This document shows, piece by piece, positions 28,356 through 54,381 of a stretch of 64,000 nucleotides of DNA. Within the stretch, counting starts at the first letter, position 1. The number at the start of each line of letters is the position of its first letter. Origin of the DNA: Phlebiopsis flavidoalba (taxonomy: Eukaryota > Basidiomycota > Agaricomycetes > Polyporales > Phanerochaetaceae); NCBI GenBank assembly GCA_035772785.1, contig JAOCPU010000031.1, positions 310,001 through 374,000 on the forward strand, written 5' to 3'. The position numbers and the translations under genes are program-made. The notes under the pieces were generated by a model, which did no database searches, was not told the DNA's origin, and saw only the letters and a list, made by a program, of their open reading frames with translations.

Positions 28356-29494
28356 ATGCCACGACCCAGTAACCGCTGGACGATGCAGATTCAAGCATAA
28401 CATTACAATGGAATATGGTGGATCGGAGGAACAAATCGAGAGTATCAGGGGTGTAAAGTCATAGTGCACACTATGTGCTATATGAGCTGATTAGGAGAAC
28501 TGCAGCACCACACGCAGCATGGTGCTTTCACAACAATGGATCTTCATCTATCACCGTTCGTTTTGAGGGTAGGCTTTTGATTTTCATCTCGCGCTCCATC
28601 TCAACACAACTGTGTAATCCCCCCCTTCTAAGGAACAGGTCTCTCGCTTTTCGGTACTGTTCCAGGGGGACTCCTATTTCGTGTGACATAGGAGGGGCAA
28701 ACGGCTATCATCACATTGACCGGCGACGACCTATCCCCAGCTATTGTCAACGCTCGCAGACGAATGAGGCGTTATATCAACATGAGCTATATATAAATCC
28801 CCCGTACTCGCCAACACCCAGCATCTACCCTCACGGTCGTCAGAACTGACGTTGATAGCAATAAAACCTTCATGGTCGGATTACCTTCAATATACTCAAG
28901 TTGGCCCCGGCGACTTTCCAGACTAGCACCTCAGGGCCACCGATCTAACTGTCAAATATCCGTCATCGCTCACTGACAACTATCGGGGGGAGCTGGCATT
29001 GCCTCAAGTACAGTATCCTTCATCTTGGGCATCTCGGAAACCTCTCAATCAACACGGTCGTTCAAGTCCCACTACCGTCATCCGAATCACAATCACAATC
29101 AGCACCACTGTCAAATGTCATCACCGCCTGGGGTTCATTCGACTTCGGACCTTGTCATCACAATTCTTCCGAGTCTACCGCTTACTACTGCGTCCGGCCA
29201 GTATTATCAACAGATATCCTTCCTAACTCGCCTTCTGCGACGCTCGGGCTTTTCACACACCATTTTCCGCCTTTGGCACACAGTCGCCCGCTAACCACTC
29301 ACCAGATGTCTCCCGCCGGAACTCCCACTGGCGCGTCCGTCAATGGTGTTAACCACCATATTCAGGATGGACGTTATCTCCTCCCTGTTCCGCCATCGTT
29401 CCATTTCTGGCGTCATTCTTGTCCTGTTCAGGGTGCAGTCCTTTACCGATGTAAAGATGAGACGTTCCACGCGTCTACCACGGCCGGTCGGTGA
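28356..29494 (+). pseudogene. Array unit 1: membrane-protein family, degraded
   Basis: The ATG at 28356 is followed by LDDADSSIT and, one base out of frame, YNGIWWIGGTNREYQ, the family's first exon. A donor gtgtaa follows at 28451 and an acceptor gattag ends at 28494. Exon 2 gives HNNGSSSITVRFEG. Exon 3 begins near 28625 with LFGTVPGG, then TLTVVRTDVDSNKTFMV and DYLQYTQVGPGDF, the family's tyrosine/acidic segment. The stalk (28930-29330) is Ser/Thr-rich in one frame (SINTVVQVPLPSSESQSQSA). A hydrophobic segment near 29380-29440 (SISGVILVLF) may be the remains of the transmembrane helix. Many frame changes and stops are present, so no protein is expected. It is the leftmost recognised member. 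Confidence 0.55.
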
Positions 29495-30105
29495 TCTCGA
29501 CCTTACATCACCGACCCGGTGACTACCTGGTCTGCAAAGTGACGTCTATGGAGGCAAAAGTTCGCTAGCATTATGCTATTTCCTGACCCAGCCCTAGCGC
29601 CCCATTCTTAATTAGTCAGTCCTCCAAGCCTACCATCAAGATGAGTCTCAACGCCCCACGGCCGTATCAACATCCGGTTAGCTCCGAAACTGGACGGAAT
29701 TCCCATACCCAGCATCCACGTCGGGCTCATCATCGCACATCCATTCCGGTCAGAAGCCCAGCAAATGCCGACCGTTCCTCCTGACATCAGCGGCGACTTC
29801 TGTCAGGGAAGAAGACCGCAGCAACGCGTCCAGATCGTCTGCCTCCCGCTCTGGCTTCGAAATTAGCACAGATGTTCCCCACCTGGTGGCCCACTCCTGT
29901 GCAGAAAGAGGTCCCACCACAGCAAGATAGGGCCTCCGCCGTCTTACAGTCGTCATTTTTGTTATAACGCAGGATGTTGACTGGCCTGGGTATACGGACA
30001 CATGTTTTCTACAGTGTCGTCTGGGATATCACGGACCTGTAATCATTATTCAGTGCGCTGACCAGCAAGCAGTTCAATTCGTCAACTCCAGTCGACTTAC
30101 CGAAC
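29495..30105. other. Possible tail of array unit 1, then spacer
   Basis: A plus-strand frame near 29640-29950 reads SLNAPRPYQHPVSSETGRNS and PPALASKLAQMFPTWW. It could be a decayed cytoplasmic tail of unit 1, but resemblance to the other tails is too weak to claim. Confidence 0.25.
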
Positions 30106-30648
30106 GTGTTGGGATGCCGATATGATGTCCAGCCGGGTTCAAACGACAGTTTGATTTCAGCCCTTGTGGGCTCAGCAGAGACTGAGATGAATCTTTCGAC
30201 CGTCTACTGTTTTCGTCGATTGTCATTATCCCTCGCCACTGAAACCGCCTCAATGCCAAGCGAATATCTTTGTAGGAAGGTTTGCTTAGCAGATAACTTG
30301 AATGCTTTTCCCATGCAATTATGAGCTGACACATCTTTTGTCAAGGATTTCTTTTGATTATGAACGTTATCATCCCACTTGTAGGCAGGTCGAATGCCAT
30401 GAAAAGGCTACTGTACTGCCTCCGGTCTCGTCAGCGATCAGCTTCGTAAACTGGAACATGGTCGTTCACTAGACACACTGACAGCGGCAGGATAGCGGAA
30501 GGAATCCCGTGTGAATCGGTGACAACGCCAACGTGCCAACATCCCCCAATACCGTAACGGAGCAAGTCGCCCAGACGACTTTCATCGCATTCCTCCACGA
30601 GAACACTGCGACCTGTATCTCCTTCGGTCGCACCTCAGTAAACCCTCA
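30106..30648 (+). repeat. Upstream region of unit 2, duplicated at 39065-39646
   Basis: This segment and 39065-39646 share long blocks in the same order: ctgatatgatg-like start, gagactgagatgaa, tcgtctattgctttcg against ccgtctactgttttcg, agctgacacatctttt, ttgtcaaggatt, then caggtcgaatgccatgaaaa followed by ggctactgtactgcc. Both lead directly into an array unit, so promoter and gene were copied together. Confidence 0.8.
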
Positions 30649-32135
30649 ATGTCTACAACGAAGGTGGACGATACGGAGCCGAGTATTAGCTACTCAGGGG
30701 ATTGGGTCAAAGCCGGCACAACCGAAGAGTACAATCAGTACATGCGCTTTCGCTTTTGACCGTGTCGACTCAGCTCATTGGACACAATAGAACCACGCAT
30801 GGTGCACAGTCTATTGGGTCGTTTTTTTCACCCTTAGCTTCACTGGTACGTGTATGATTATATGTTCCTTTTAATCATTCCGTTTGTTTAAAAATGTTCT
30901 CGCACAGGTTCTTCTGGTTTCGATCTTTGGTACTGTGCCCATCACGCCCGAAGATAATTCAACGGCCATCGTAAAATTCAGCCTCGACGGCCTCGATTCC
31001 GCAACCGTCATCGCACCACAGACATCATCAATCATCTACTCGCATAAGTTCTACACATCGCCTTCGCTTACAAGCGGAACGCACACACTCACTGCCATTG
31101 CTGTCGATGTAGCGATTGACCACACATTCTGGCTGGATTATTACGAAGTAATCTCCCCGAATTCAGTAATCACTACGGCGTCCACAAATCCGCACCCCAG
31201 CGACCCCACCCCCTCAAGCACCGTCTTCTACTGCTTTTGTAACTACTGGAGCAGCGGATCAATCTACTTCACTCTCTCCCTCGTCGGTCAATTCCCCAAA
31301 CCTTTCGCAGACAACGCATCAGTCTATTTCTCTTTCATCGGTCGAACCTTCAAATCTGCGCCCTACACCGCCGTCGCAGGCATCAGTGTCAAACTCCTCA
31401 GCGCCTACGCAAATTTTGTGGACATCCGATGTGCAAATCTCGTTCCTTTCTTCTGCCACTGATACGCCGAATACGGCCACGGGACCGCCGTCGAATTTCA
31501 GTGCTACATCTGTCGCATCTGGGGGCCACCGTCGCGGCCAGATAGTCATCCCAGCTGTGGTCGTCCCCTTATGCTGTGTCATCATTCTCGCCTTTGCGCT
31601 GCTGTTCTTTTGCAAAGCCAAAGACGACGCAGGAACCCGCATGTCGGCCTCTCTATAGAGTCCTCTTCCTCGGGTCCTGTACGCTATGCTACGACACAAG
31701 GTACAGGCTTCATCCCCAGCTGTAATTCGGTCCTTGAGTGCTAACCGTTTGCTTCAGAGGCTGTTCAAAGCTATGTGCCTTTGGAAGGCGCCCCTACACA
31801 GTCTACCACTGCCTCAGCCACAGGAGATCCTAATGCGTTCACACAATGTACGGACTTTCAATCCAGGCAGGCTAATGCCGAGGACGTCTCAATTCCCATC
31901 GACATTGCCAACGCCCACACCCCTTCTTGGTTCAGCGCATAGAGACCATCATGAGAAGGATCGTCAAAGCCACAGGGTCGTTTCCCAGGAATTTCCCGTC
32001 TCGCCTCTATCCTTGTGGCTCACCGATAGTCCGTCGCGCACGAGTCTCGCTGACACTTCCGACTTCCCGCCGCCTTATTCTGATCGGCGGAATTTAGAAA
32101 GGACTTCGCTGCCAACTCGGTCACAGTTGACGTGA
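30649..32135 (+). pseudogene. Array unit 2 (PPPY tail type): single-pass membrane protein
   Basis: Exon 1 from the ATG at 30649 reads MSTTKVDDTEPSISYSGDWV, then GTTEEYNQ. Intron 1 is about gtacatgc to cacaatag (30738-30790); exon 2 gives TTHGAQSIGSFFTLSFTG in a frame disturbed by a T-run; intron 2 is gtacgtgt to tcgcacag (about 30846-30907). Exon 3: VSIFGTVPITPEDNSTAIVK, FSLDGLDSATVIAPQTSSII, HTLTAIAVDVA and FWLDYYEVISP. A Ser/Thr stalk follows, broken by frame changes near 31220. The membrane helix is VIPAVVVPLCCVIILAFALL, then FFCKAKDD. After a likely intron the tail (31690-32135) carries DVSIPIDIANAHTPSW and, in another frame, DTSDFPPPYSDR, a PPxY motif of the kind bound by WW domains. Extracellular N-terminus with one pass is inferred. 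Role unknown; surface sensing or adhesion is a guess. Confidence 0.68.
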
Positions 32136-32466
32136 TTCACACACTGCCTGCGCTGATGGAGTCTATAAGATCCAGCACGTTCGGATTGATGTAAAGTGCG
32201 ATTGTGTGGCTATACGTATGATTTCACGTGCTACTACTTAGTGTTGTTTTTTTCAGGTACAGGCATAATATAAGTAGTCATTCACCTTCTTCCAGCTTAT
32301 GATTCATATGACCGTAAACACGTTGCCTATGGCCGTCCATGGCGTGGGGGCTGCCCATTATGATATATCATGGTGAGCGTTTCACCTCAGTCTCACGCTG
32401 TGATATCGTTCCGCTCACGCATTTGAGATGACATAGAGCCTGTTGATCACGGCCTTCAGGCGCGAT

Positions 32467-33024
32467 AGCTCATAAAGCAGCTAACCTTTACAGACAGCAC
32501 TCCATCTAGTTGTGCCCTTGGACCACTCACTTCTGATCATTTTTTATGTCTTTAATAACAATCATAGACGATACGGACCCAAAAATCAACTACGAAGGGA
32601 GCTGGCATCTTGTGGGACACAGTGGGAGTACAATAAGTTCGCACAACATTCTCAGCTTCTTATCCCATTTCTGACGTGCAACCATAGGACAACACATGGC
32701 GCAAAATCCATTGGATTTACTCTTCACGCTTGATTTTACCGGTCAGTCTATAACCATACTTATGCCCCGCGTCTCAAAATATCCATGTGGCATTTTAAGA
32801 CTGTTTATCTAGGTACATCCATCTCCGTGTATGGCACCGTTATAACTTACGGGCTTTCCAACGGCTCGACAGCTGTTGTGAATTTTAGCGTGGACAATAC
32901 TCATTCTCAGACGATTGTGGCACCGCAGACGTCGGTCGCAATCTTTTTGGGCACGAATTTTACACTTCACCGTCACTTACGGTCGTGCGATCACACGCTT
33001 ACTGTCGTAGCACTTGATGTGGAA
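32467..33024 (+). repeat. Direct repeat, copy 1 (unit 3 5' half)
   Basis: Nearly identical to 34634-35209. It starts agctcataaagcag and ends gatgtggaa in both copies, covering the 5' flank, exons 1-2 and most of exon 3. Differences are mainly one- or two-base changes in short runs plus an AT insertion in the other copy. Confidence 0.92.
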
Positions 33025-33695
33025 AGCAGCTTCCCGTTCTATCTAGATTATATCGAAGTGGATTCCCCAAGCTTGTCCATCAGTTCTACCAGTCTCCATG
33101 ACCGCGCACATCTTCAGCGAATCATCCTTCCAGCGGTGATTGTCCCACTTTGCTGTGTTGCTGCAGCTGCCCTTGCGCTACTGTTTTATTCGGAAGCTGA
33201 GGAGAAGAATATCACTCTCTAATCGCGTCTCCGACTATCCAACGATGTCAAAGCCTACGCAAGAGAACGCGGCACGAGGTACGAGTGCGGCCCACACCCA
33301 AGTCTTTACCGTTCTGATCACATATCAAAGAAACCATGCAAAGCTATATATCTTTGCAGAGCAACCTTACCTGGCCTCCAATCGCCCGAGATGGATCGAG
33401 CACCGAAATACGTTCATATCGCACAGATTCAGAAATCCGAGGTTACAGACCTAACAACCCTCAGAGCTCTATCAGCATTGCCAATGCCGATATTCTCACA
33501 GCGTTTGTGGCCGTAGGAGGCCATGCGAGCGATGACCATTATAATCGAACTCTCTCTTTCCAGCATTTTTTAGTACAACCGTCTCCCTCATGCCTGCGGA
33601 GAGATCATCGCACTCATCACGTTTCACGTTCACGCTCTGGGGTCTTTGGTGATCCCGACCTACCACCGCCATACCCTGGAAGTTGTAGAATATAA
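32546..33695 (+). pseudogene. Array unit 3 (PPPY tail type): single-pass membrane protein
   Basis: The ATG at 32546 gives MSLITIIDDTDPKINYEGSW. Intron 1 runs from about gttcgcac to caaccatag (ends 32689); exon 2 reads TTHGAKSIG; intron 2, gtcagtct to tatctag, ends at 32812. Exon 3: GTSISVYGTVITYGLSNGST, AVVNFSVDNTHSQTIVAPQT, HTLTVVALDVESSFPFYLDY, then IEVDSP. A short stalk leads to the membrane helix IILPAVIVPLCCVAAAALAL, then LFYSEAEEK. This exon 3 is open from about 32785 to 33222, the cleanest in the array. The tail (33336-33695) is open too and ends PDLPPPYPGSCRI, again with a PPPY motif. One deletion after HLVG, relative to its near-identical partner, puts the end of exon 1 in the wrong frame. 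The stalk is shorter than in neighbours. Confidence 0.7.
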
Positions 33696-34633: not shown

Positions 34634-35209
34634 AGCTCATAAAGCAGCTAAACCTTTACAGACAGCACTCCATCTAGTTGCGTCCCTGGACCACTCACAT
34701 CTGATCATTTTTGATGTCTTCAATAACAATCATAGACGATACGGACCCAAAAATACAATCTACGAAGAGGGCTGGCATCTTGGTGGGACACAGTGGGAGT
34801 ACAACACGTTTTCGCACAACATTCTCAGCTTCTTATCCCATGGTCTGACGTGCAACCATAGGACAACACATGGCGCAAAATCCATTGGATTACTCTTCAC
34901 GCTTGATTTTACCGGTCAGTCTATAACCATACTTATGCCCCGCGTCTCAAAATATCCATGTGGCATTTTAAGACTGTTTATCTAGGTACATCCATCTCCG
35001 TGTATGGCACCAATTAATTTTTATTATAACTTACGGGCTTTCCAACGGCTCGACAGCTGTTGTGAATTTTAGCGTGGACAATACTCATTCTCAGACGATT
35101 GTGGCACCACAGACATCGGTCGCAATCTTTAGGCACGAATTTTTTTACACTTCACCGTCACTTACGGTCGGCGATCACACGCTTACTGTCGTAACACGTG
35201 ATGTGGAAT
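34634..35209 (+). pseudogene. Array unit 4: truncated duplicate of unit 3
   Basis: A near-identical copy of 32467-33024. Its ATG is at 34714 and the exon 1 end reads IYEEGWHLGGTQWEYNT, which keeps the family pattern that unit 3 lost through one deleted base. Conversely, a frame change separates the DDTDPK part from that end here. About ten extra bases (aattaattttt) interrupt exon 3 after the VYGT motif, and further small indels lie in T-runs. The copy stops at gatgtggaa (35209); the DY motif, membrane helix and tail are missing, so it cannot encode a full protein. The abrupt end marks a duplication breakpoint. Confidence 0.85.
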
Positions 35210-36110: not shown

Positions 36111-37707
36111 ATGTCTTCACCGACTCGAGTGGATGACAACGACACTACGATAAATTACTCATCGAATGACTGGAAAAGCGGAGGTAGCATTAACGAGTTT
36201 TGATAAGTGCGTAAGACTACTATTGTCGCGAAAAAGGACGCATAAGTCATGGAGCTCAATTACCAATGGCAGCACAACACATGGGTATGCACACACCCCA
36301 TGCATTCTTCAGCTTTACCTTCGTCTGGTATGTACCCCAATCTCTCAGAGCTCGTTGCACAGCATCTTGATTGCGGCGACATGACCATATCTCATCGACA
36401 TTTCAGGTACCAGCATAAGTGTTGCTGGAACTCTCGGTAAACACTACGGAAAGTATAGTGATCGAATTCACTCTGGACCAGGAAGCACCCCCGAGTACTA
36501 CTAGCGTCGCCGCTAAGGGAACAGTTAGCTTCAGCCAAACGATATATAGTAGAGAGTCTCTGCAGACCCGGCGTCCACACATTGCTAGGACGAAGGACCG
36601 ATGGAAATAGTCCCATTGTTAACAATGTCCTTCTGGCTCGACTACCTCGAGTACACTCCTGTGACCTTGTCAGCGGCGGCCGAAACTGGCTCTTCGCTAG
36701 GCCCAACACCCACCACACAGAACACAGATTACCGGCCCAGCATCATTATCGCCCCACATCGCCGGCTTTCCGAGGCGGGCGCAACTGGACCGTCCAGTCC
36801 ATCCTTGGAGTCTACGCTTAGCGAGCGATCGAGCTCGAGCCCGTCATCTGCATTGCAAGTAGCCACGTCCGCTGCAGAGGAAGCGGCAGGCCCATCGTCA
36901 TACCAGACAACCCCGGGGGTCATCGAATGCAAACGTTTCAACCCGCCCCAGCTTCTGCGTCGTTTTTCGCATCAGATATTCCACACGCCAGCAGCACAAT
37001 CAATCATGGTCACGAGCAGTGTCGACCCCACTGGCTGGCACACGGGCTCACCTGTTTGCTGGCGGTACGTCAAATAGCGCAGAGACGATGACCAGGGTCA
37101 TATCTCCCATAATCTGGCAACCATACTTCCGGCTGCAATTGTTCCGCTGCTATTTTTTGCGGTATTGGCGATTTTATTCGTGGTTGTTCGACGAAGGAGG
37201 CGCCTAAGAAAGAGTAAAGAAAGGCTATTCGTGATGCCGCCCAAGCCGCTGTCATATGCTTCAGAGCTTGCATTGAAGCATCATAACACAGATGGTGCGG
37301 TTTCTTACCTCTAGGCAGTGGGTTGAGGCTGACATTGGGGCTGCAGATCAGCGGAGCGAGATGAGCGAGTCCACTCGTGCGGATTCGAAGTCGCTCATGG
37401 GCGAGGCTTCTGGACGCGCGGCAAAACACCCCGTTCAGATCGAAGACTGTGGATCCACGTGGAACACCCTACTTACTCCATTGCAACTCCCTCTGTGCTC
37501 TCTGTGCAGAGCAGACACTCTAGCGTCATGTTCGGGGAAGCCATCCACGAATCTGACGATGGACACGCACAGGGTGGTCTCGGAAGAATCATCACCATAG
37601 CACCTTTTATTCTCTGCATACGCCTACGAACAGGACACCGGCTGCGCGTCAGTGTGACTGAGTTGTGGAGTAGAGCACAACGGACCTTCTTCTGGCATTC
37701 GCAGTGA
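36111..37707 (+). pseudogene. Array unit 5 (YASELALK tail type): single-pass membrane protein
   Basis: The ATG at 36111 gives MSSPTRVDDNDTTINYSSND, then WKSGGSINEF. Exon 2 includes TNGSTTHG near 36250-36290, with a donor gtatgcac after it. Exon 3 starts after atttcag near 36408: GTSISVAGTL, then in another frame TTESIVIEFTLDQEAPPSTT and KGTVSFSQTIYSRES; FWLDYLEYTPVTLS follows at 36630. The stalk (36660-36950) is rich in Ser, Thr and Pro. The membrane helix, at about 37103-37190 in yet another frame, is TILPAAIVPLLFFAVLAILF, followed by VVVRRRRRLRKSKER. The tail reads LFVMPPKPLSYASELALKHH, then an intron (gtgcggtt to ggctgcag), SEMSESTRADSKSLMGEASG, HPVQIED, PSVLSVQSRHSSVMFGEAIH, and remnants of the ESSPSTFYSLHTP block. 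Tail phosphorylation is plausible from the Ser content but is inference. Confidence 0.7.
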
Positions 37708-39064
37708 GCACTAGTGAGCCTTGATACCCATGATACCCCACACGTACCGCATGATAGCATTACACCATCCAAGTTTTGGGACCCTGCACCATCGCTGTTT
37801 GACACCACCACCGTTCTTTCAATATCCTCGTATTCGTACTTCTCTTGAACAATTGGCGGACATCCTGTATCCATTGTTGCGATATGGACATTGCCCATTC
37901 AATGAGTATTATGGGGGATGGCACAAATGGAGTCAAGCGTGCTTGTCGTGGCTCTAAAATCGGGGCGGGCAGACTCGAGGGCAGACTTCGCCAACGTGAC
38001 GCTCCTGCCAAGCAGGCTTGTGCAAATAGAAACGCATCAAAGGCGCGCAAGGCGCAGCAAGGCGCATCAGTCTCATGGCGCGCCCAGACCCTCGATAGGT
38101 TTTTTTCCCCGAGTTCCTAAACGAGACTCCCTCCATTCTCTCCCTGGATGACCTATTTTGGTCCGTCCAACTGCAGTCGACATTATACCGAATGCGTAGT
38201 CCTCTAGCTTTCCCATCCCGCACATCCCGCACCGGGAATCCCGACAAGAAGCGCTAAGGCTTTCGGCCGGCGAATCGACATCGAAAAAAACGGATGTTTC
38301 GCCGTTCGTCCATAGGGTCTGGTGTGTTTGGAAATCTAAAAGGCTACATCGAGGCGCACGTGATCGTCACGCTCAGCGCCTTGGGGGCCCACTCTCAATG
38401 TCGTGGAGACCCCTTCGACATCGGTTCTGCTCTCCCAGCCCTTCTAATCAGATGTAGCGTACATTTTCCTCAAATTACAGATTTTCTTCCGCTTTTATTT
38501 TGATTTACTGGCTGGTTTTTTTCTTGGAGGGTCTGACTTCTTGGCTGTCTAACCGCTGTCCGGCGGTATGAACGATGGCGCCGCTCTGCTCAGCGCCCCT
38601 TTCTACTTCAATTGAGGTGCTAATGTTCTAAGAATGTTAATGTCGCTGAGAACGCACTCTCAAATGTCGGGACTACCGGAGTTCTCAGCCCAGCCCCAGT
38701 TCGAAGCGCCATCATCGCATATACCCAGCACAGAGCCGAGTACTTGGGCTTCCTAGTGCCTCCAAACACTCCTGCGTGTCATGAGAATGACCCACATGCG
38801 TATGCGAGAGATTGGAAGGGACCCGCGAGCACTGAACAGATGCACCAAGTCGTGCACTCGCAGAGGGGAGGAGGGGCGCGAGGGGTCCTGTCACACGGTC
38901 ACGTCACTCGATGTAGCCGGTCATGATCCAAATTCACCAGACATTCCCCCCAGAACCAGGACTTCAGTTTTTCGATGTCCGACCGGTTCAGCCCGGCTAT
39001 GTCCGGGCTAGGGCGGGAGAGGCCTTCGGGCCTCTAATGGCTGGGGACGAGACTACCGAATGCG
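37708..39064. other. 3' flank of unit 5 and spacer
   Basis: The first 450 bases match the 3' flank of unit 7 (tgataccc(ta/ca)cac, ttttggacc, gtttctttgacacc-like blocks, aatagaaacgcatca, ggcgcatca at 38061-38069, tccattctc near 38132). The rest has no supported gene. Two small hairpins lie at 38990-39035. Confidence 0.6.
38990..39035 (+). other. Two adjacent 7-bp hairpins
   Basis: AGCCCGG (38990-38996) pairs perfectly with CCGGGCT (39003-39009) around a six-base loop. AGAGGCC (39018-39024) pairs perfectly with GGCCTCT (39029-39035) around a TTCG loop. No function is known. Confidence 0.6.
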
Positions 39065-39646: not shown

Positions 39647-41054
39647 ATGTCTTCTCCAACGAGGCTGGACGATACGGATCCCTGGCCGTAATGTTAGCTA
39701 CTCAGGAGATTGGAAAAGAGGTGGGAAGCTTGTTGAATACAATGGGGTACATGCGTTCTAACGTTGACACGTTTATGGTCCTCAGCTGACTGTACACGAC
39801 AGGACTACGCACGGGGCCCAGTCTACGTGGGTCCCTATTCACCCTTAGCGTCTCTTCACTGGTATGTGGCGATGATTATTCGTGCTCGATTACTCGTTCC
39901 ACAGGTCTAAAACGCTCTCGCAATAGGGTCTTTCACCTCGATCTTCGGTACGGTGCCCCCGGTACGTGCACCCCACCCCCCAAAAACGATTCGCGAGCCA
40001 TCATCGCAAAGTTCAGTCTCGACACGGCCTTCCTTCCTTAACTGTCACTGCCCCAAAGTCAGCATCAACCATGTACGGGCAAAAATTTTTACACATCGTC
40101 TTCGCTTACTACTGGAATGCACACCACTTACCGCCATTGCTATCCGACGTATTCTGGTTCGACTACCTTCGAAGTGATTCCACCAAGCTCGGTAGTTGTC
40201 GAGGCTGTCGCGTCTACAAAGCCTGGCAACTCATCTGCCGGAATACCGTCTTCTACCGGTATTTCAACTGCTAGTGGAGGAGAGCAACGGATCGGTCTAC
40301 CTCATTTTCTCCTTCGCTGGTTGGTTCATCAAGCCTGCTCCCTGCTTCGCTATCGTCCCCTTCTTCCGCACATTGATACGCCCCATACGGCTACGGGACC
40401 GGCGGCCAATATCAGCGCTACACTGAAGCCTCTGAAGGCCACGGTCACAACCAGATAATTATCTCAGCAGTGGTTATTCCTTTATGTTGAGTCACCATCC
40501 TCGCTTTTACGCTACTTTTCTTTTGCAAGCGAAGGACGATACACGAAGCGAATGCTGGCGTCTCTATACGGAGTCTTATTCTCTGGGTTTGGTTCGATGT
40601 GCTACGACGCGAGGTACAAGTTACATCTTGACTGTATTTCAATATTTTCGTGCTGAATGTTTACTTTAGGGGCTTGCTTTCGAAGTTTCACGCCTCTGAA
40701 GGATGACTCTTACGCAGTCTACCCGCTGATTTGGCTGCAGGGGATATCAATACTTTCGCGCATCGTGTAGACGGGTCAGGACCGTGGCAAGCCAATGCCC
40801 AACGGTGCCCTCAAGTCATATCAGCACTGCCGATGCCCACCCCCTCACCGAAACCAGCGCATGCAAAAAACAACTATGGCGAGGAGCCTCGAAACACACA
40901 GGGTCGTATATCAGCAATTTCCGGTCTCGCCGCCATCCTCGCGGCCAGGAACACGCTACAACGAATCATTGAGCACTGGGGCTTTGTGCATAAGTCTCCG
41001 CTGAGAGACCGCCGACCTCAGTCCGCCGGGCTTACTCTGACCGCGCGAATTTAG
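39647..41054 (+). pseudogene. Array unit 6: degraded paralogue of unit 2
   Basis: Exon 1 from the ATG at 39647 reads MSSPTRLDDTDPW and, after a frame change, VSYSGDWKRGGKLVEYN. Exon 2 (about 39810-39860) is close to that of unit 2 (HGAQSTW.. then SLFTLSVSSL), followed by intron gtatgtgg to gcaatag. Exon 3: SIFGTVPP, NDSRAIIAKFSLD, GKNFYTSSSLTTGMHT, FEVIPPSSVVVEAV, with FWFDYL in another frame. The stalk is broken. The helix region near 40455-40530 reads QIIISAVVIPLC, stop, VTILAFTLLFFC. A tail (40740-41054) contains DINTFAHRVDGS and ISNFRSRRHPRGQEH, equivalent to the unit 2 tail with its PPPY region altered. Stops and shifts throughout make it a pseudogene copy. Its upstream and downstream flanks also match those of unit 2. 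Confidence 0.62.
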
Positions 41055-41449
41055 AACGGACCTTCGCCGCCAAAACTCGGCTGCATTCGATGTGATCCCA
41101 CTGGTTGCATGGCCTACTATGGTCGGATGGATCACCTTCTGACTGACATATAGCGCAATTGTGAGGTTAAAACGTTCTATCCTTCATGCAAACCATTTGT
41201 TTTCTGATAGCGGTTTGGAGGTATAAGCAAAGTGCGTATGCTGCGTTTAGGGGACAATATAAGACATATTGGCATTAATTTAAGTATCTATTGGCTTATG
41301 ATGCTTATGACCCGAATATGTCTTCCATGGCCCTTTGTGGCTGGCGGGATAGTCATTATAACATGATCGTGAGTGTTAGCTTTAATTCTACACTGTAATA
41401 TCACTCGGCTGACGCATTCGAGATGACACAGCATTTTTAACCGCTCAAG

Positions 41450-42106
41450 TCTCCGGCGACTCACTGTTCTGGCGTTGGCTGTTCTGTCTTTGCCGCGGCT
41501 CTCGCATCTGCGGTATTCTCTTTTCGCGCGAGAAGTCGTATTATCGCTTCGCAACAGATACGAAGTCTCCAACGTATCGGAGTCTTCACTCGATGACATG
41601 CTACGAGGTATGCGTTTACCCTACATTCAATCTCTTCTGCGCTTGCGCTGAAGCTATAACAAAGGAACTGTGCAAAGCTGTGGCCAGTACGCCTTTCCAG
41701 AGCCCACTCTGCTTGGAATCATACCGCCCGAGATACAGAGGATGTCGCACCACGCATTCACGACACAGACCCTACATTCTCGGCAACCCGATTTCCTGGC
41801 ATCGTCTATCAGCATTGCACACTCCATCATTTCATCTGCATTGAGCAAACACCACTGCAAGGAAAATTGTCATCGGAACGAAAGCACCGTCGACTCCCAA
41901 CAATTACGAATCTCGCCACTGCCCACAGAATACGCGACGGCGCTACACACCAGTATCGTTCATAATTTTGACCTTCCACCGCCTTACATCGTCCTAAGCG
42001 GTCATGTGCTGCGCCTCCTGCTTGTAGCCCGCTCCAAAATTGGCCTGCAGTGTCCTGTGAGAGATAAATCGATGTTTACAGAAGATGAAAGAATATTTTA
42101 CACGTG
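41450..42106 (+). pseudogene. Array unit 6b: isolated PPPY-type tail fragment
   Basis: Sequence after 41450 reads VLAVLSLPRLSHLRYSLFAR, possibly the end of a membrane helix, then SLRNRYEVSNVSESSLDDML followed by a donor-like gtatgcg and an acceptor-like ctgaag. A tail follows, in frame 41670-42106: DFLASSISIAHSIISSALSK and HNFDLPPPYIVLSG, again a PPPY motif preceded by Asp. No exon 1-3 belongs to it. It looks like the 3' end of another PPPY-type unit whose front was lost, or a second tail exon captured behind unit 6. Confidence 0.45.
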
Positions 42107-42828: not shown

Positions 42829-44434
42829 ATGTCTACTCCTGTAAAGGTGGACAACACCAACCCTAGCATAAGTTATCTCGGCGATTGGAAGCTAGGCCCA
42901 AGTAGCGTCAACCAGTATGTGGTCGATTCATTATAAGACAAATAGCGCCCTTATATGAAATGCTGACCGTAGGACCACTCATGGCGGCAATTGTTACAGG
43001 GGGCCTCCTTTTCCTATGAGTTCGTGGGTATGTACTACAGGTTTAAAATCCGCCGCGGCGCGCATAGGAAGAGAATAACCCTGCGTTAGGAACCAGCATT
43101 TCCGTCTTTGGGACCATTAGCGCTCAGGCCCTGCTGGGTCTATTGTAATCTCCTTCACGCTGGATGGAAAAGACACTCAGGAGTTCACAGCAATAACTGA
43201 CTTAGCAAAAGGGATACACAATATAACACAAAAGCTTTCATGTCAATAATGGTCTATCTAACCTCCGGGCCCCCACACACGTTGAGCTGTGAGCGTTGGT
43301 AGGAGGCAGCAGTCCTCCCCTAGCTCTCCAATATTCTGGTTTGACTACCTTATTTACACTGAAAGCACGACTGTGCCGCCCTTCAGAGGTCGCTCCATCC
43401 ACACCACGGGTCCTACGCAACCGTCCCCTAATCCTCCAGCCCTCTGCTGCGGTGGCATCGCCATCTACGTCTTCAGTTTTAGGCGCAGGTTCAACGCCGA
43501 GCTCATCCCCATCAACACCTTCGGTCGCGTCTATAGCAAGCATCCCAGAAGTACAAAATGGATCATCATCGTCATTTTCGTTCCAGGCCGTGATGCCCCC
43601 AGCGTCCTCCAATCCAAGCGCAGCTACAGCGGCACAATCTGATGTCTCGTCCTCGGCACTGGTCACTGACCCATCAGTATCAAGCTCAGTTCCGGAACGC
43701 GGGACATTTGCAGCGCAGCCATTGACAGCGACCAGCAATACTGCCGCTACCCAGCAGCGTAGGTCTCACCGTAGCCGGCGGCAGCGCAGATGGCCCCAGC
43801 GGAAATGAGCCACATACTACACATGATCTGAATATAATACTTCCAGCGGTCATCGTACCGTTGCTATTCTTCCTGGCATTTGGCAGCCACATACGCCCTA
43901 GTGCGTCGCAGGAGGAGAAAGAGTAAAGAAAGGTTGTTTGCGTTACCATCCAAGTCGCTGTCGTATGCATCAGAGCTCGCATTGAAGCGCCATGCAGAAG
44001 GTACATCCTCTGACCTCAAAAAAATCATGGGTTGACGCTGACTCCATTGCAGCAGATCAACGTAGTGAACTGAGCGAGTCCACTCGCGCAGATTCACAAA
44101 AAATCGCTCATGGGCACGGCTCCTGGACGCAGCAAACACCCCGTTCAAATCGAAAATCGGGGATACGCGTGAAACACCCTACTTACTACATGCAACCCCG
44201 TCTATTCTTTCCGTCCAGAGCGAGCACTCCAGTGTCATGTTCGGGGAAGCCATTCACGAATCTGACGATGGACACGCGCAGGTGGTCTCGGAAGAGTCAT
44301 CACCTAGCACCTTCTATTCCCTGCATACGCCTGCAAACAGGACACCGGCTGCGTCAGTGACCGAGTTGGGAGTAGAGCACGACGGACCTGCTCACATTCT
44401 CTCAATGAGCGCTAGTGAGCTCCGATATCCATGA
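42829..44434 (+). pseudogene. Array unit 7 (YASELALK tail type): single-pass membrane protein
   Basis: The ATG at 42829 gives MSTPVKVDNTNPSISYLGDW, then KLGPSSVNQ, with a donor gtatgtgg directly after. Exon 2 starts near 42972 (TTHGGNCYRG) and ends at a donor gtatgtac near 43026; the acceptor gcgttag ends near 43090. Exon 3: GTSISVFGTISAQA, then in a new frame GSIVISFTLDGKDTQEFTAI, and FWFDYLIYTESTTV at 43335. The stalk (43400-43800) is long and Ser/Thr/Ala-rich in one frame (SSSALVTDPSVSSSVPERG). The helix near 43835-43890 reads NIILPAVIVPLLFFLAFG, broken before a basic RRRRKSKERLFALPSK. The tail: LSYASELALKRHAEG, intron, QRSELSESTRADSQKIAHGH, PSILSVQSEHSSVMFGEAIH, VSEESSPSTFYSLHTPANRT, ASVTELGVEHDGPA. 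Its tail is the best preserved of this type. Confidence 0.7.
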
Positions 44435-45097: not shown

Positions 45098-46620
45098 ATG
45101 ATGCTGGAGCTAGTAAGGATAGACGACAGAACACTGACATTTAACTGGCCATCTCAGAATCTAAAACAAGGTACTTCATTCAAAGAGTACAAAAAGTAAG
45201 TCCATGTATCATGGGGCCTATATTGCGCGGCGGCCGACCCACGGAATACAGCACCACCACGGGCATGGTGAACGGCTCAACATTTGAGCATGTATTCCAA
45301 GGTGCATAGTCTTCCCCATTCACAAGGATATTTCCCGCATCTAAAATCGAGAAAATTCTTTTCACAGGTTGCCAGATCAGTGTCGTTTGGCACAATCGGG
45401 GAGTAACGCGTCGCAAGGTTGCATTGCATTTTCCATATTAAACCAAGGATCGCCGACTACTGTGCCAATACCTCACCGTACCTCAAACACATACAATCAC
45501 ACATTATACACATATTCTCATCTGGATTTTACTATTAATCATACGCTGAAAGCGGTGGCAATTGCCAACAGTAGCTGGCACAATGCCTCTAGCGGGCCGA
45601 TATGTTATGGGTGGATTATCTCTCACTCCTTACCCGTGGAGGCCCATGTCGAAAATCATACTACGCCCCCACCGAACGAATCAAATCGTAGCGCAGTGCT
45701 GGCTCAAACGTCATCATCGACAACCGGCACACTCGAGTCAGGTGAATCGGCGTCAACTTCTGAGCCGGTAAGGGTACGTACGGCTCACTCTTCTAGATTT
45801 TGGAGTCTTTCTTACGCGCGATGATCTACTCGTCTTTGTGTCTATGTCCCGACAGGCTTCAAATTCATTGTCATCGACTAGTTTAACCGCGGCAAGCGTC
45901 GTACGGCCTACAACAAGTGGTGGGCATTTGTGGTCCGCAACCTCACCTGAGACGTCGTTAAAATCAGGCAATACCCGAACGACACTGCCAGCTTCATTGA
46001 CTACCAGTGGCACGTCATCTGCTAACGATAAATCAACTACATACTCAGCTGGAGATACTTCCACATCTGATCGCGCCACAGACATTATCATTCTAGCGGT
46101 TATTGTCCCGCTGCTGTCCCTCACGATCATATCGGCCATTTTCTTCATCATTTGGCGAAGCAGGAGAAAGAATAAGGCACCCCGAGACTGTTCGTAACAC
46201 CATCAAAGCCCCCCGTCCTTTGCGTCGGAGCGTCACAACACACAGGGTCAGTAAGCATGGTCGTACTTTGTGTATCGACCTGATCTTCACGTATGTGCGC
46301 AGCCCGATCCAGCTCATCGAGCAAACTCCTCGCATGGAGGCTACAGCTGCTCCTCATCGCAAGACTCCTAGACGCAGCCAACACCCCGTTCAGATCGAAA
46401 AATCGGATTTCTCGCGAACACCGCACTTGCTACAGACAGCCCGTCGTCTGTCCTTAGCTCCGCTGGCAGCGACTTAGAACGCACTGATATCATGTTTGGA
46501 GAAAGCTGTCGGTGGATCCGACGACGGGTATGGGCACTGGGAGGTGATCTCGGCGGCGTCGGGCGGGCAGGGATCAGCACCTTCCATTTTCTGCACGTTC
46601 CTAATCATGCGAGCAGAGCT
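45098..46620 (+). pseudogene. Array unit 8: divergent family member
   Basis: The ATG at 45098 gives MMLELVRIDDRTLTFNWPSQ, then NLKQGTSFKEYKK, a clean exon 1 ending at the donor gtaagt (45196). Exon 2 (TTTGMVNGSTFEHVFQG) and intron 2 (gtgcatag to ttttcacag, ending near 45368) are also clean. Exon 3 from 45369 begins CQISVV; one base is missing before the FGTIG motif. It continues with GCIAFSILNQGSPTTVPIPH, TNHTLKAVAIANSSWHNASS in open frame, where the usual WLDY motif is replaced by ICYGWIISHSLPVEA. The stalk is Ser/Thr-rich (TSSANDKSTTYSAGDTSTSD). The helix DIIILAVIVPLLSLTIISAI, then FFIIWRSRRKNK, is at 46080-46175. Tail: RLFVTPSKPPVLCVG, HPVQIEKSDFSRTPH and a reduced FGE block. The lost WLDY motif and different start set it apart. 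Confidence 0.65.
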
Positions 46621-47439
46621 ATAGGGTGTTGTAGACCAAGCTTGGAGTTATAGCGTCACAGCTTGTCTCGCCAGTACGCACGGCTCCCATGGTGCGCACT
46701 TTGAAAGTTGTTTATTGCTACATTACCGTTCAGGCCTTAGGGTTCGAATCCTCATCCACCATTCTTTTGAAACGATCTCTTTTAGGTTATACCTTGACGG
46801 TGTAAATATCTTGAATGAGTATTATTGTTATAATCTGGCGGATCTATCGCCTGGCACATCCATCTCTCAAAGTAAGACGCCGCTTATCGACTCCCGTGAG
46901 GCCACATTGACAAGGGGAGGCGCATCACCGACCGACGTTTGATCGAACGGCGCTTACGCTCGCCGGCTTCTCCGCAGGTTCGCGCTCATGTTCCCTCTCT
47001 CCACATTCGCTGAAAAGACCACTTTAGAATGGGCTCGCGGCTATTCTCCGCTTACTCCGTGATATCATCTTTACCATGGTAAACGAGCAGCGTCCTGCAT
47101 CGCGAGAAGTCTTTTCATTTAATATGTCTCGGATATCCATTTTCTTGCTTAGGACTCACGCACGCGCTCGCTCTTCTGTAAGTGGCTATAAACTTCTCAC
47201 ATTCGTGACGCGCGAAATCTTGCACAGGCTTCCCGGATCTCAGATGATGACAATCACCCCACCCCCCCTGATGAGGCCTTGTTCTGACAAGTATGAAAAA
47301 CTGACAAACGTTCGAATGGCATTTGAGAGTCGCACATTTGACAGCTCGCATTCCCCATTTCCGACACATCAGAGGAGAAACATGAAGCTCAGATGGTAGC
47401 GACATACGCCGATGATAATCTGTGTACCCCTCGATTCTC
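46621..47439. other. 3' flank of unit 8 and spacer
   Basis: Contains ggcgcatca at 46919-46927 and a ccctctctccacattc block, as after units 5 and 7. GTSIS in one frame near 46855 may be a stray exon 3 fragment. No gene supported. Confidence 0.45.
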
Positions 47440-47859: not shown

Positions 47860-48080
47860 ATGTCCCGACGGTCAAAGTTGATGATCGAGACTCTTCAAGC
47901 GTTTATAGTTAGCGTGGTTGATATGGATCCCTCAAGGCGGTCATAAGGAATACAATAGGTATGAGCTTGTAGTTGCACAGAGTAATATTCCGTATATAAA
48001 CTCTATAGTAAGTAATGACAGCACCAGCAACGGAATGTTGTAAAACGTCGGAACAGCCAGACTTTCACCTTGTATACTTA
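47860..48080 (+). pseudogene. Array unit 9: 5' fragment (exons 1-2)
   Basis: The ATG at 47860 is followed, out of frame, by VKVDDRDSSSVYS and a disturbed W..GG..EYN region, then the donor gtatgagc near 47958 and possible exon 2 sequence (caccagcaacggaatg near 48020). Exon 3, helix and tail are absent downstream. It equals the front of unit 11 (VDDRDSF). The missing back half may be unit 10, 1.8 kb away. Confidence 0.5.
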
Positions 48081-48923
48081 TTTCTTACGGCTTCCTTATT
48101 GTGTATGCCTATCTCAACATCCCTCGGCATATTAAAACTGAATGCTTCGCTCCCCCCTAAATCAATTTCGTCCCTTAATCTCCTAGCCTAAAGGCATCCA
48201 CAGATCCTCGCGTTGTTTCGTCGACTATTGCCGGTCGTTCCTATCAGTTCCAAATGCACCACAATTATGTATCAGCACGAGTACGATGGAACGTCAGGTG
48301 CCGCCCCCGGCCGTATTTTCGTGAATTAAACGCCCCCGAAGTCTCCGATACTTGTTTATAAACTGCGCCCCGCAAAATACCTTTAGATACGCCAGACTGC
48401 ACGATATCTGCGCCGCACCTTAACGTTGAACTGCCTTAAAACTGGTGCCTGACGTCTCTCGCTGTAGTACTTATTGCAGGCGGCTCCCGCTCGCATTGAC
48501 ACGTGTGCATCATACGTACGAGTATGGCTATCCGTAGAGTACATTGTACTCCATATGCGCATAGGATAATATATCCGATGCACACTGCAACCGATTGTTG
48601 AATCTCTGTGACAACATTGCACAGCACAACACCCTCTGCAACTACGGTGATTGATTGTCCGACCTGAGTCCAGCCCCGCTATGATATGACGGCCTTTGTG
48701 CTTTCATTACCTTAAAATGACTCATACTTAATAACGAGCACTCCTCGATGCTATGCACACAATGCGTCCCGAGCCGCATGCAAACTTTGTCGGCTGCTGC
48801 AGTGCATGCAACGTGGGAGCCAGCTCGTTTTGCATGTTCCTCTTGAGCTAAGATTTTGATAGCGTTCAATAGTATGTTAGAGCCCTGGCTGCAGATAAGT
48901 GACTGTCATGGGTCCCCACCGCG

Positions 48924-49040
48924 TAACGGGCAGTAACTGCATGTAACTGTTCTTCCACTGGTGTCTAAACTGTCCTTAACTGTTCTTAACTGTTTCTCAA
49001 ACTGTTGCTAACTGCGTTTCCACTGCTTCTAACTGTCCCA
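48924..49040 (+). repeat. AACTGT-rich repeat, left block
   Basis: The motif taactgt or aactgt occurs about every 10-15 bases (gtaactgcatgtaactgttc, then cttaactgttcttaactgtt). A second block lies at 49548-49650. Together they could be subterminal repeats of a non-autonomous DNA transposon. Confidence 0.55.
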
Positions 49041-49547
49041 AATGCCTCGGATATATCTCTAGATCTGTGTTGCTTGTCATTGTTGTTTCTGACATTCAAC
49101 AGTCTAGGGCAAAGTTTTTTAAGGATCTCGATGAATTTCACGTTATTAAATACTACCACTTGGGTGAATAGGACACTTGCCGCTTAGCACTACTGACATT
49201 CACTGAGAGCCATACACTCTCCACTGACGCATTTTTGGTGCATACCTAAATATAAATATCTATGATCTGTATGAAGCTCAGATTTCGCGAAGTCCGTATC
49301 TCTCAAGCCCACACACGCGAGCTCGCGCAAACAAAACGATCGGGGTGTGCATACCTGGGGGTCCTTCTGATCCAGCCCTCAACGAGAGCCGTCCTCGAAA
49401 GTCAATAACGATGTCGAACACCTATCGGATGCCTCTCAGATACCCTCGTGACACATATGGAGCATCGTCGCAAGCTTTACAGGAATGCGCGGAATCACAT
49501 TCGACATGTCAAGTTAGGCGAAAGCTACAGCCGTAAGTAGGTCAAAC

Positions 49548-49650
49548 GGTAACCTAACTGTTTCTAACTGTGCCAACTGTTTCTGGGACAGTACGTTACA
49601 GTACGCTAACGTCCCGTAACTTTGTCGTGATAACAGTTACGGAAAAGATT
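49548..49650 (+). repeat. AACTGT-rich repeat, right block
   Basis: Contains cctaactgtttctaactgtg and ccaactgtttc, then inverse-oriented copies (acagttacggaaaag). The left block begins cgcgtaacgggcagtaactg; the right block ends with ccgtaactg on the opposite strand, a loose inverted arrangement. Confidence 0.5.
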
Positions 49651-49869
49651 TAGCATTTCCCGTTAGATTGTGAAACCATCTAGATGGCACTCAGACCCCT
49701 GTATTAAGCGTGGTACCTTCAGCACAGTCTACTCTCTACCAATATCAACTCTACGACTTGCCTTCGTCCTAGCTCAATCCAGCTCTCGGAGGTTGGGGGT
49801 CAGGGAAGAGGATACCAGCTAATACACTAGAAGGCAGGGCCCATATGCATTACGCTTCGCCCAAACCAA

Positions 49870-50972
49870 CGTTCCTATAGTTTGGCTCGACTTCTTAGTG
49901 TAAACACTTCGACTTATACAAGCGTCCCGGGCCCGGAGGGGAGCCTTCCTCAGGAGACAGGTAGCTCTACACAGGGCACATTGACCCCCACCACGAAACT
50001 GCTAGTTGCATCTGGAGCATGCCAACCGAGGACGAGATCCACTCGTAAAAGCCGCGTTATAGCGGAGCTCCGGATTTGTAAACAGTAGCCTCAAGTCTTT
50101 CGCTAACTTCAAGCGCGTCTACTGGGGACCTCAGGGTCGGATCTGGTAGCCCAGCTTATACGACGGATCGCAAACACTAGACCGTGCGGACTACCGCGAC
50201 ACCCGCCGCGGTTAGCGGGGGAAGTATCTCGTCTTCGGTTTTCGTTGAATAGGCCAGACATACCAATGTCATCATCCAGAACGCCAGGGTTGGACGGGAA
50301 TATACCGGTCTCATCGGTGCCCGTGGGTGCAGAAGGTACCTCGTCGACCAATACAACCCACCCACACGATACGCCCCAATGACGGCACGCGCCATTCAAA
50401 TATTACAGAAACTGTCGTTCCCGCAATCATTGCTCCATTACTGTTTATCGCGGCGTTACTAGCCATTGTTTATTTGATGCGACGGAGAAGGAGACAAGCC
50501 AAGAAGAGGATGTTTTTAATGCAGACCAAGGACCTATCTTATGCATCAGACAACTTGCGTTGAAAACGTAAACAACACGCAAGGTAAGTAAAATATCCAT
50601 TCAGAGTCAATCGGCTGGGGCTTACGTCAATCTTCGGTAGACCAACACAGCATAATGAGCGGGACCACGCGCGTGGACCTCCAGTTCTCCGATGGACTCA
50701 AGCTCCTGGATGCGGCGAATACGCCTTTCAAATCTAAACATCTAAGCACCCTCCGAGTCGCCTTACTTATACTACATACAGACCCCTCAATGCTCTCGGT
50801 ACGGCAGCGAGCGCTCGAGTGTCATCTTTGGACAGGGCTGTCGGCGGATACAATGATGATCAACGCGCAGGAATTCTCGGAGGCATCGTCGCCCAGCACG
50901 TTTTATACCCTGCACGAACCTGTGAACGGGGACACCGGCTGCATCAGTGGTCGAGCTGGCAGTAGATCATGA
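49870..50972 (+). pseudogene. Array unit 10 (YASELALK tail type): 3' part only
   Basis: The fragment starts in exon 3 with FAQTNVPIVWLDFLV at about 49866-49900, then YTSVPGPEGSLPQETGSSTQ in another frame. The stalk is broken. The helix, open at 50395-50475, reads ITETVVPAIIAPLLFIAALL, then AIVYLMRRRRRQAKKR. The tail: MFLMQTKDLSYASDNLR and, after an intron, TRVDLQFSDGLKLLDAANTP and EASSPSTFYTLHEPVNGDTG. Exons 1, 2 and the SVFGT part of exon 3 are missing upstream. The tail blocks match units 5, 7 and 11. Confidence 0.65.
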
Positions 50973-51550
50973 CGTACCTTCTTGTAGCCGTGATGACCTT
51001 TTGCCTCCATGACCGTGGCTCGTTGTGCATTACGGTACATATACTTTGCATTCATTCAAGTTTGGACTTTATACCGCCGCTCATTCGATACCCTCCCTTT
51101 TTCGTTGTATAGCTTACAAATTCACTGTATTCTTTTCAATCTTTGATAGAATGCTATATGGTGAACGTAGATATGAGCACGCTCGCTATTCAGTAGAAAA
51201 AAACCGTCGCATTCCACTGTGACACCACGGACGGGTCCGTGCGCCCTTCGCAAACAGAGGCGCAATGTTATCAATGATGGCGCATCACCTGGGGCGGTTA
51301 TGATCGCAAGTCTCAAGCGCGTTCGGGCGGACCTTTCCTCTCACCCCATCTTCACTTTGCTCGGAGTCGTACCCTAAAAAGCCACTTGAGATCAGTCGAA
51401 AGTCTGGAGTATACCAGGATACCTTATGAAGATACTGTCGAGTTTTCCTAGATATGACTAGCTCAGATGATGGAAATCATCCCAACTTCCCGACGAGGCG
51501 TGTTCCGCTAGGTAACGAACACTGACATAACGTCGAATGGCGCCTGAATA
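50973..51550. other. 3' flank of unit 10
   Basis: Contains ggcgcatca at 51279-51287 followed by cctttcctctcaccccatct, as after unit 11. No gene supported. Confidence 0.5.
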
Positions 51551-52244: not shown

Positions 52245-52379
52245 TACCGTACTGCTGACAGTTCGCCTTCCAGATTTTCCAGCGCATCAGAAGGGAAGCT
52301 TGAATTCCAGATGGTAGCAACATAAGCCAGTGATAATCTATCCTTTTCTTGTTTTGGCTGTCCGTCGGCCCTCTGAGAA

Positions 52380-52790
52380 TCTTACGACATCTTGGCGCCA
52401 CGGGCATGGCGGTTGGGCGTAAAAAAAGTAACTCGAGGTATGTCGCTCTTCCTACCTTGGTTGAAGTTTGAAAAGCGCATTTGAAGCCCACAGTTCTCAT
52501 ATCGTACACGCACCAACATTCTAATCTTCAGATGTCCTCCGCATAATTGCTGGCATTGACAGTCGAGAGAAAAAAAAGCGATAGAACAGAACATTCTCGC
52601 CTAGAGCATTCCCCCTCCCGAGATATCATCTCGGGTCATCGAAACTCGATAGCCATCTCTGGTCTAATAGAGTATTTTCACACGATTCAAGCCGCTACAA
52701 AAGCCCACAGGTTTCGCGATACCACCAAGCACACGCCCCCTTCGGTCTGTTCATGAAGTGCTCAGACGACAGCACCGAAATTCGTACAAC
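52380..52790 (+). repeat. Upstream region of unit 11, duplicate of 47440-47859
   Basis: Same ordered blocks as before unit 9 (gaggtatgtcgctct, ccttggttgaagtt, catctcgggtcatcga, gagtattttca). An A-run (aaaaaaaa near 52570) differs. Confidence 0.75.
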
Positions 52791-54381
52791 ATGTCAATAG
52801 CCAAGTAGATGATCGAGACTCCTTCGATATCTTACAAGGGGCCTTGGATCACACAAGGTGGTCCGAATGAATTCGACAGGTATGCCTTTGTACTGTTTCG
52901 TGTCGTGTGCATATAGTTTATTGAATTCTAATAGCACCAACCACGGTATGGTACCTGGGACAAGTTTTACTTGCACTTTCAACGGTACGTAAATCACCTA
53001 TCGCAGGAGTCGTTCTTTGGCTCGTGTTGTTGATTGCACTGCTGAAGGCACTGGTGTCTCTGTTTTTGGCATGCTACCAAGTTCACCACCGCAAGCTACA
53101 ATCTTTTTCACTGTGGATGGCACACAAGTCAAGACTACCGTTCCTAGTCCCAACAGCTGCGAGTGAACCAATATGGATATCTGCTCTACGCATCCTCTAC
53201 TCTCGAAAAATGAACAATCACATACGCTGAGCGCCACTGTGGACTACAACGAGTGGACAACCCTGACATCCCTGTATTTTGGAGTCGATTATTTCGAGTA
53301 CACCATAGCTACAGGTGGAGCGAGTACCCAACAGCGGGCCAACCGTTTCCACCTCTGAGTCCGCAGTCTCGCCTTTCACTCGTCCCATCGGCCCCATCGG
53401 CCCCATCAGAAACATCGACCCAGTCGCACGCACGGCAGAAAGCATAAGCTCAATAGCGGCATCGAGCACAGGAATGCCAGGATCAACTTTGAGTATGTCG
53501 AGTCAAGCATCTGCTCTGTGTTTTTTTAGAGGTTGTCGCACCCACAACACAACTGCCAGGAGCCGCTATGGAACACACCACAAGCAGCGGCGGAGATGGT
53601 TTGTCGCCGTCTTCGCCGTTCCAGGCAGGGCGTAGACGTCGTCGCCGCGCAAAACGCCAGGGGTCGGACGGCAACTTACGCCGACATCATGGGGTCCAGT
53701 GACTCCAGACAAGCACCTCGTCGACTCAACTCGACCGTCTTCGTACGGCATTTTACACACCCGGCGGTGGGCACCACACACAGATAGGAACAGCAACGAT
53801 CCTTCCGGCGATACTTGTTCCTCTGCTGTATCCTCGCTTTGCTATTGACAGTCGTTTTTCTTTGGTACGACGGAGAAGTGAGGAAAGGCTAAAGAGAGGA
53901 TGTTCGTAATGCATCATGGGCACCTATCGTACGGCATCAGAACTTGCACTAAAGCGTCAGTAGCCCCGAAGGTAAGTCCTATCACGGGCCAAGTAGCCCG
54001 TACTAACGCTCATTGTTGCAGACCAGTCATAGCTCATCATGAGCGGATCCACACGCGCGTGGATTCCAACTACCCTCATAACGAAACTCTTGGACGCGGC
54101 GAAACACACCTTTCAGATCCAAGCATCTCAGCATGGCCGAGTCACCCTACCTGGCACATGCGACCCCCTCGATGCTCTCCATCAACAGCGAGCATTCCAG
54201 CGTCGTTTTCGGGCAAGCTGTCGGTGGGTCCAACGACGGACATGCGCGGAACGGGTCCGAGGCATCGTCGCCTAGCACGTTTTATTCTCTGCAAAGCAGG
54301 ACGCCGACTGCGTCAGTGGCAGAGCTGGAAGTAGAGCATAACGTACCGTCTCGTAGCCATGACGAACTTTTGCCTCCATGA
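52791..54381 (+). pseudogene. Array unit 11 (YASELALK tail type): single-pass membrane protein
   Basis: The ATG at 52791 gives MSIAK; one base later in frame VDDRDSFDI, then YKGPWITQGGPNEFDR, the family pattern. Donor gtatgcct follows at about 52880. Exon 2: STNHGMVPGTSFTCTFNG, then intron gtacgtaa to tgctgaag. Exon 3 from about 53047: TGVSVFGMLPSSPPQATIFF, then TVDGTQVKTTVPSPNSCE, a stop, SHTLSATVDYNEWTTLTSLY, then FGVDYFEYTIATGG. The stalk (53340-53780) is Ser/Thr/Pro-rich with a GPIGPI repeat and several breaks. The helix region is IGTATILPAILVPLL at 53787, with a shift in its second half, then a basic segment and LSYASELALKRQ. The tail: PSMLSINSEHSSVVFGQAVG, SEASSPSTFYSLQSRTPTAS, VAELEVEHNVPSRS. 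The 3' flank holds ggcgcatca at 54651-54659. Confidence 0.7.

Follow-up and report, generated by a model that had tools for sequence, protein, structure and literature searches.

What kind of protein is encoded by the dense tandem array in a 64,000-nucleotide stretch of Phlebiopsis flavidoalba DNA (the window; positions 310001-374000 of contig C31, in an assembly of 36.28 Mb and 129 contigs), and what might its many unlike copies be used for? The array occupies positions 28356-54381 of the window, and a first-pass annotation had described it as about twelve units or fragments of one single-pass membrane protein family, perhaps a recognition repertoire. We found that the units descend from a common ancestor and share one architecture, that a C-terminal PPxY motif is conserved among their relatives, and that one subgroup, the B units, combines constrained tails with heads that have diverged more. 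We propose, with a probability of roughly 0.5, that the array encodes cell-surface sensors of carbohydrate whose heads diversify, some of them coupled through PPxY to an Rsp5-type ligase.

Family membership and a second cluster

The read-through of unit 2 (units are numbered as in Table 1) returned one protein, P0001 of Trametes coccinea, and the P0001 head as query returned eleven more, nine from Trametes, Cubamyces and Collybiopsis and two from metagenomes. The metagenome proteins (P0010 and P0011) are distant matches carrying a CE2_N domain and were left out of the profiles and homologue counts, while P0002-P0009 and P0012 (9/11) were kept. The homologues are annotated as hypothetical or uncharacterised proteins only, and among the matches listed in open-licence PMC text neither the titles nor the opening lines of the abstracts dealt with this family. 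Relatives in three genera bear out part of the earlier view that the family is widespread in agaricomycetes; a head from a second cluster (contig C53, below) found no match at E 0.01 among 122 candidates, all of these being searches limited by shared words.

A head profile was made from eight head segments of seven fungal homologues, with no window rows, and aligned to the DNA in a way that tolerated frame shifts and introns; the underlying alignment had been built together with the unit 2 head, whose row was removed afterwards. Nine of the ten window heads scored above the null (103, 86, 81, 77, 72, 52, 49, 49 and 47); these were the window's matches above 44, all within the array, and the minus strand gave none. 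Null maxima reached 36-43 on the plus strand (four nulls: three shuffled, one reversed) and 34-45 on the minus strand (four nulls). The result agrees with one shared family, all on the plus strand. The tenth head (47860) scored 39, below the null, and membership of that unit comes from DNA, with 47339-47971 aligning to 52256-52892 of unit 10 at 68.5%. Local amplification of one family is likewise supported, with real DNA repeats between units.

On contig C53 (35001-113000 and near 166000), a 70 kb stretch contains eight further heads above the highest null (46.1), on both strands; the adjoining 8 kb adds two, and a 5 kb segment around 166 kb contributes one weak match (49.7), giving 20 head matches in two clusters (window 9, C53 8 + 3). 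A C53 match at 33048 (score 45.3) fell under the highest null and was dropped, and weak matches on C22, C71, C33, C19, C54, C40, C36, C2, C9, C3, C46 and C1 were left aside. The two clusters have no common DNA similarity at the threshold used and are therefore not alleles.

Head, helix and two kinds of tail

The head is predicted to be a jelly roll of the CBM6/CBM35/CE2_N kind (the families being those among the fold matches listed); this prediction, made on a homologue, agrees with the carbohydrate-binding-type fold suggested earlier. The Pfam curated cut-off was reached in none of the ten window pieces nor in P0001. Among 15 alignment members, a scan in which cut-offs are given for P0001 only, CE2_N was matched in 4 (best E 0.016), CBM_6 in 1 (E 0.13) and Mid2 in 1 (E 0.34); no NACHT/NB-ARC or HET domain was matched at E 1 in the ten unit pieces and the same 15 members. 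The first 140 residues hold 0-1 cysteines in 10 homologues, which is not the cysteine-rich head of Wsc proteins.

The expected single-pass architecture is supported: units 2, 3 and 5-10 each matched a helix segment, and Ser/Thr-rich stretches precede the helix in the frames of units 2, 5, 7, 8 and 10. Homologue stalks contain 28-56% Ser/Thr; a Ser/Thr stalk is also part of the layout of Wsc-type sensors. In the 10 homologues the predicted helix reaches a hydropathy of 2.3-2.9 over 19 residues, versus at most 1.57 at the N-terminus (12-residue maximum in the first 45 residues), where no signal peptide is visible. Lysine plus arginine number 5-9 after the helix and 0-2 before it, and sequons 3-8 before the helix and, after it, 0 in eight homologues and 1 in two. 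An outside head fits, because charge clusters after the helix and sequons stand mostly before it; the head would thus lie outside without a cleaved signal peptide, an unusual arrangement, and by the same charge and sequon pattern PPxY would lie on the cytosolic side. Apparent export of a head that has no visible signal peptide makes topology a question of its own.

The C-terminus is PPPY plus two or three residues in all 10 fungal homologues counted (P0001-P0009, P0012). PPxY also occurs in 11/12 downstream stretches of the C53 cluster, with a stop within one to three residues in 7/12; in stretch C109.6 no tail end is near the motifs. Five C53 tails (C48, C50.0, C53.4, C57.4 and C165.9) carry two or three PPxY motifs, like multivalent WW ligands. 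Of the 11 window stretches, 4 carry the motif (the 41.4 kb fragment and units 1, 2 and 3), and the following stop comes 6-39 residues later. The seven stretches that do not carry it are truncated unit 4, frame-broken unit 6 and the B tails of units 5, 7, 8, 9 and 10 (PPxY in 0/5). The background is 6 motifs in 100.6 kb (flanks on both strands and array antisense), a set unmatched for coding composition. PPxY is described as a recognised ligand of Rsp5 WW domains (PMC2810449), and one genome locus combines three WW matches with two HECT matches after them. When the genome was searched with a B tail, 8/8 matches among the best candidates scored fell within the array; distant B tails elsewhere may be missed, because only the best candidates were scored and the unit 8 tail itself was unlisted.

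The B tails are constrained (dN/dS 0.14-0.36 in all ten pairs), and they are more alike than the heads in 6/6 pairs of the four B units whose head could be read, from units 5/7 (tail 84% vs head 37%) to units 8/10 with the least difference (37% vs 32%); the head readings come from a profile alignment that included the unit 2 head and from error-rich sequence, which somewhat lowers head identity. In the nine Polyporales homologues (P0001-P0009), by contrast, heads are more alike than tails in 34/36 pairs; of the remaining two, one is a tie and one an exception. The homologue pattern is therefore inverted in the B units, since tails are more alike in 6/6 pairs and homologue heads in 34/36. The first-pass annotation had called every copy different outside and inside; in the B subgroup a more variable head stands on a more constant tail.

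For units 5 and 7, DNA similarity starts 69-79 bases upstream of the helix, and upstream of that point 100-base windows give 39-57% (head, stalk and promoter each 49%; shuffled 39%). The proportion of silent differences (pS) is 0.87 (0.75-0.96) in their heads vs 0.48 (0.37-0.59) in their tails, and in columns with the same residue codons are shared in 15/38 head positions (chance 12.3) and 92/136 tail positions (chance 42.5; p 0.0024, or 0.0021 with exons 1 and 3 only). The same test, seven times in all, gave p 0.047 for units 5/10, 0.14-0.80 for the other four B pairs, and 0.36 for the whole-length pair of units 2/6, uniform along its length. Gene conversion or exchange, giving mosaic tails, is thus supported in one pair only (units 5/7), the other B pairs giving no clear signal and units 2/6 being uniform. 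The 3' untranslated regions are 74% and 68% identical in the closest pairs and 50-57% in the others; because they are alike in the closest pairs only, shared constraint and age explain much of the tail likeness.

Layout, sequence quality and surroundings

An ATG stands at 10/10 of the unit starts proposed earlier, and the shared position of intron 1 holds loosely, since a loose pattern, AG and then a TTHG-like run of codons, is found in 8/10 units. The supposed back-only fragment near 41450 was confirmed (41440-41734 aligns with the unit 3 tail region at 60% DNA identity). The one near 49870 is real too (50277-51099 aligns with the unit 10 tail region at 68%), but it is not a separate unit; together with the front at 47860 it probably forms one unit 9, to judge from the alignments, interrupted by about 1.5 kb. 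Inside this interruption, 49442-49680 is a repeat matching contigs C2 (76%) and C51 (85%, shorter). Suspicion that the units are assembly duplicates of one gene touches unit 4 only, a close copy of unit 3 (92% DNA identity, 96.9% at aligned bases only, with eleven gaps, several in homopolymer runs); the other units are not assembly duplicates, with DNA matches at 59-76%, and another DNA self-comparison gave inter-unit matches up to 79% over 631 columns and, besides, two of 50-55 bases at 86%.

Table 1. Units and fragments of the array (window positions)
Feature	Position	Strand	Parts and remarks
Unit 1	28356..29950	+	weak head pieces 28376-28591 (score 37, below null) and 28789-28896 (49); PPPSY near 29936
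Unit 2	30649..32132	+	head 30664-31144; helix region 31524-31655; tail 31757-32132, PPPY at 32067
Unit 3	32546..33690	+	head 32564-33054; helix from 33118; PPPY at 33663
Unit 4	34714..35208	+	head only; close copy of unit 3, 3'-truncated
Unit 5 (B tail)	36111..37730	+	head 36129-36660; helix from 37123; tail 37346-37730
Unit 5 region DNA-similar to unit 7	37044..37863	+	begins 79 bases before helix
Unit 6	39647..41062	+	diverged whole-length duplicate of unit 2; head end 40087-40169; helix region 40437-40566; tail 40681-41062
Tail-only fragment	41440..42000	+	like unit 3 tail region; PPPY at 41976
Unit 7 (B tail)	42829..44431	+	head 42841-43372; helix from 43831; tail 44055-44431
Unit 8 (diverged B tail)	45098..46640	+	head part 45361-45622; helix from 46081
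Unit 9	47860..50985	+	front 47860-47971; B-tail back 50277-50982; head exon 1 below null (39.4)
Unit 10 (B tail)	52791..54381	+	head 52957-53304; helix from 53799; tail 54039-54378

Each of the nine heads read contains 2-7 frame shifts, which were absent from the first-pass annotation. The assembly is rich in indel errors: tubulin genes on contigs C8 and C51, aligned to human tubulins, show 9 frame shifts over 1347 nt (beta) and, for alpha, 5 over 1464 nt and 23 over 1395 nt, although some of these shifts coincide with intron boundaries and could be artefacts of the alignment. Frame breaks in the window therefore say little on pseudogenes or decay, and the argument for pseudogenes from broken frames was dropped, since tubulins of the same assembly are likewise broken.

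Between units, 51549-52246 is bounded by an exact 28-base inverted repeat and resembles a small mobile element. Just upstream of the array, 26639-27305 matches Peptidase A4 (glutamic peptidase) in two frames; downstream, 60007-60849 and 63167-63999 are a direct duplication (84%), with a protein-kinase match under its cut-off at 61761-61928 between the copies. Rfam and tRNA scans of the window gave no match, and no telomere repeat was found in the contig's last 3.4 kb.

Possible role and known systems

We propose a single-pass cell-surface protein in which an N-terminal jelly-roll head would be carried by a disordered Ser/Thr stalk through the wall, with a single helix next and a tail in the cytoplasm. 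A carbohydrate would be the most likely ligand of the head, whether from the own wall, another hypha or the substrate. PPxY tails may dock the WW domains of an Rsp5/NEDD4-type ligase, so that occupancy of the head could feed into ubiquitination and into endocytosis or signalling, and the five B-tail units, with a different constrained tail and diverged heads, would offer several specificities with one output.

The same parts could belong to membrane adaptors of an Rsp5-type ligase, whose head recognises glycosylated clients in the secretory or endocytic lumen while the PPxY tail recruits the ligase. The motif at the C-terminus of 10/10 fungal homologues and near the stop in 7/12 C53 stretches, the WW-HECT locus in the genome, and yeast membrane proteins whose PY motifs serve Rsp5 as adaptors (PMC2810449) all point that way; five B tails, however, have no PPxY, and tandem expansion with diverging heads would be unexpected for housekeeping adaptors, and we consider this explanation unlikely. 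Improbable to the same degree are Wsc/Mid2-like wall anchors, adhesins or stress sensors, in which the head grips a wall polymer, the stalk acts as a spring, and diversity tracks wall composition. Head, stalk (Ser/Thr 28-56%) and single helix do have the Wsc-type layout, but the head is not cysteine-rich (0-1 Cys), Mid2 was matched in 1/15 members (E 0.34), no signal peptide is visible, and PPxY and the head/tail contrast would be left unexplained.

That the array is a graveyard of tandem duplicates decaying after their use was lost is suggested by 2-7 frame shifts per head and by the presence of one copy reduced to its head, one fragment reduced to its tail and one unit that is interrupted; with tubulins likewise broken the breaks are uninformative, while dN/dS of 0.14-0.36 in the B tails argues against decay, and we regard it as very unlikely. 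We give as little credence to non-self (somatic or heterospecific) recognition, in which the heads would sense carbohydrate or protein marks displayed by other hyphae, with the constant tails setting off rejection or control of fusion. A variable head on a constant B tail, the reverse of the homologues, the head-tail silent-site difference of units 5/7 and local amplification are consistent with it; against it, no cell-death or NLR Pfam match at E 0.01 was found in the flanks (13-28 kb and 54.5-64 kb, six frames), and fungal allorecognition literature, as far as excerpts of PMC10197012 represent it, concerns NLR and HET-S proteins. Only slightly less doubtful is a basidiomycete surface-recognition repertoire in which jelly-roll heads diversify on the constrained B tail, recombination or conversion homogenises helix and tail, and PPxY relatives are turned over by an Rsp5-type ligase; if true, it would be a cell-surface counterpart to fungal intracellular NLR repertoires. 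For the carbohydrate-sensing proteins that we favour, the family gains a testable architecture, a sugar-module fold outside and a PY motif inside, and the B-unit inversion, tail kept and head diverging, is a signature worth testing for recognition.

Compared with known systems, the Trametes/Cubamyces proteins P0001-P0009 and Collybiopsis P0012 have the same head motifs (VDD, FTGT, HTL, WLDY), Ser/Thr stalk and one helix, likewise without a visible signal peptide, and share the C-terminal PPxY with 4/11 window stretches. P0001-P0009 differ in heads more alike than tails (34/36 pairs), the window B tails being a different, PPxY-less family, and P0012 differs in having two head-like segments. Unlike CBM6/CBM35/CBM36 and CE2_N modules, the window heads have no match at the Pfam cut-off and stand on a membrane stalk rather than an enzyme. 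Wsc-type sensors are described with a head domain (PMC9024836). Wsc/Mid2 sensors share the order of head, Ser/Thr stalk, single helix and tail, but the head of the window family is unrelated, no signal peptide is visible, many tails carry PPxY, and the genes lie in tandem arrays. Yeast Rsp5 adaptors (Bsd2, Tre1/2, Ear1, Ssh4) also place a PY motif on a membrane protein, Rsp5 binding being a candidate property here to judge by the motif; they recruit clients by other means than the proposed glycan-reading head, and a further difference is that SPRY was not matched among the Pfam hits of the ten window pieces and 15 alignment members. The parts are of known kinds, while their combination and the inverted constraint of the B units look new.
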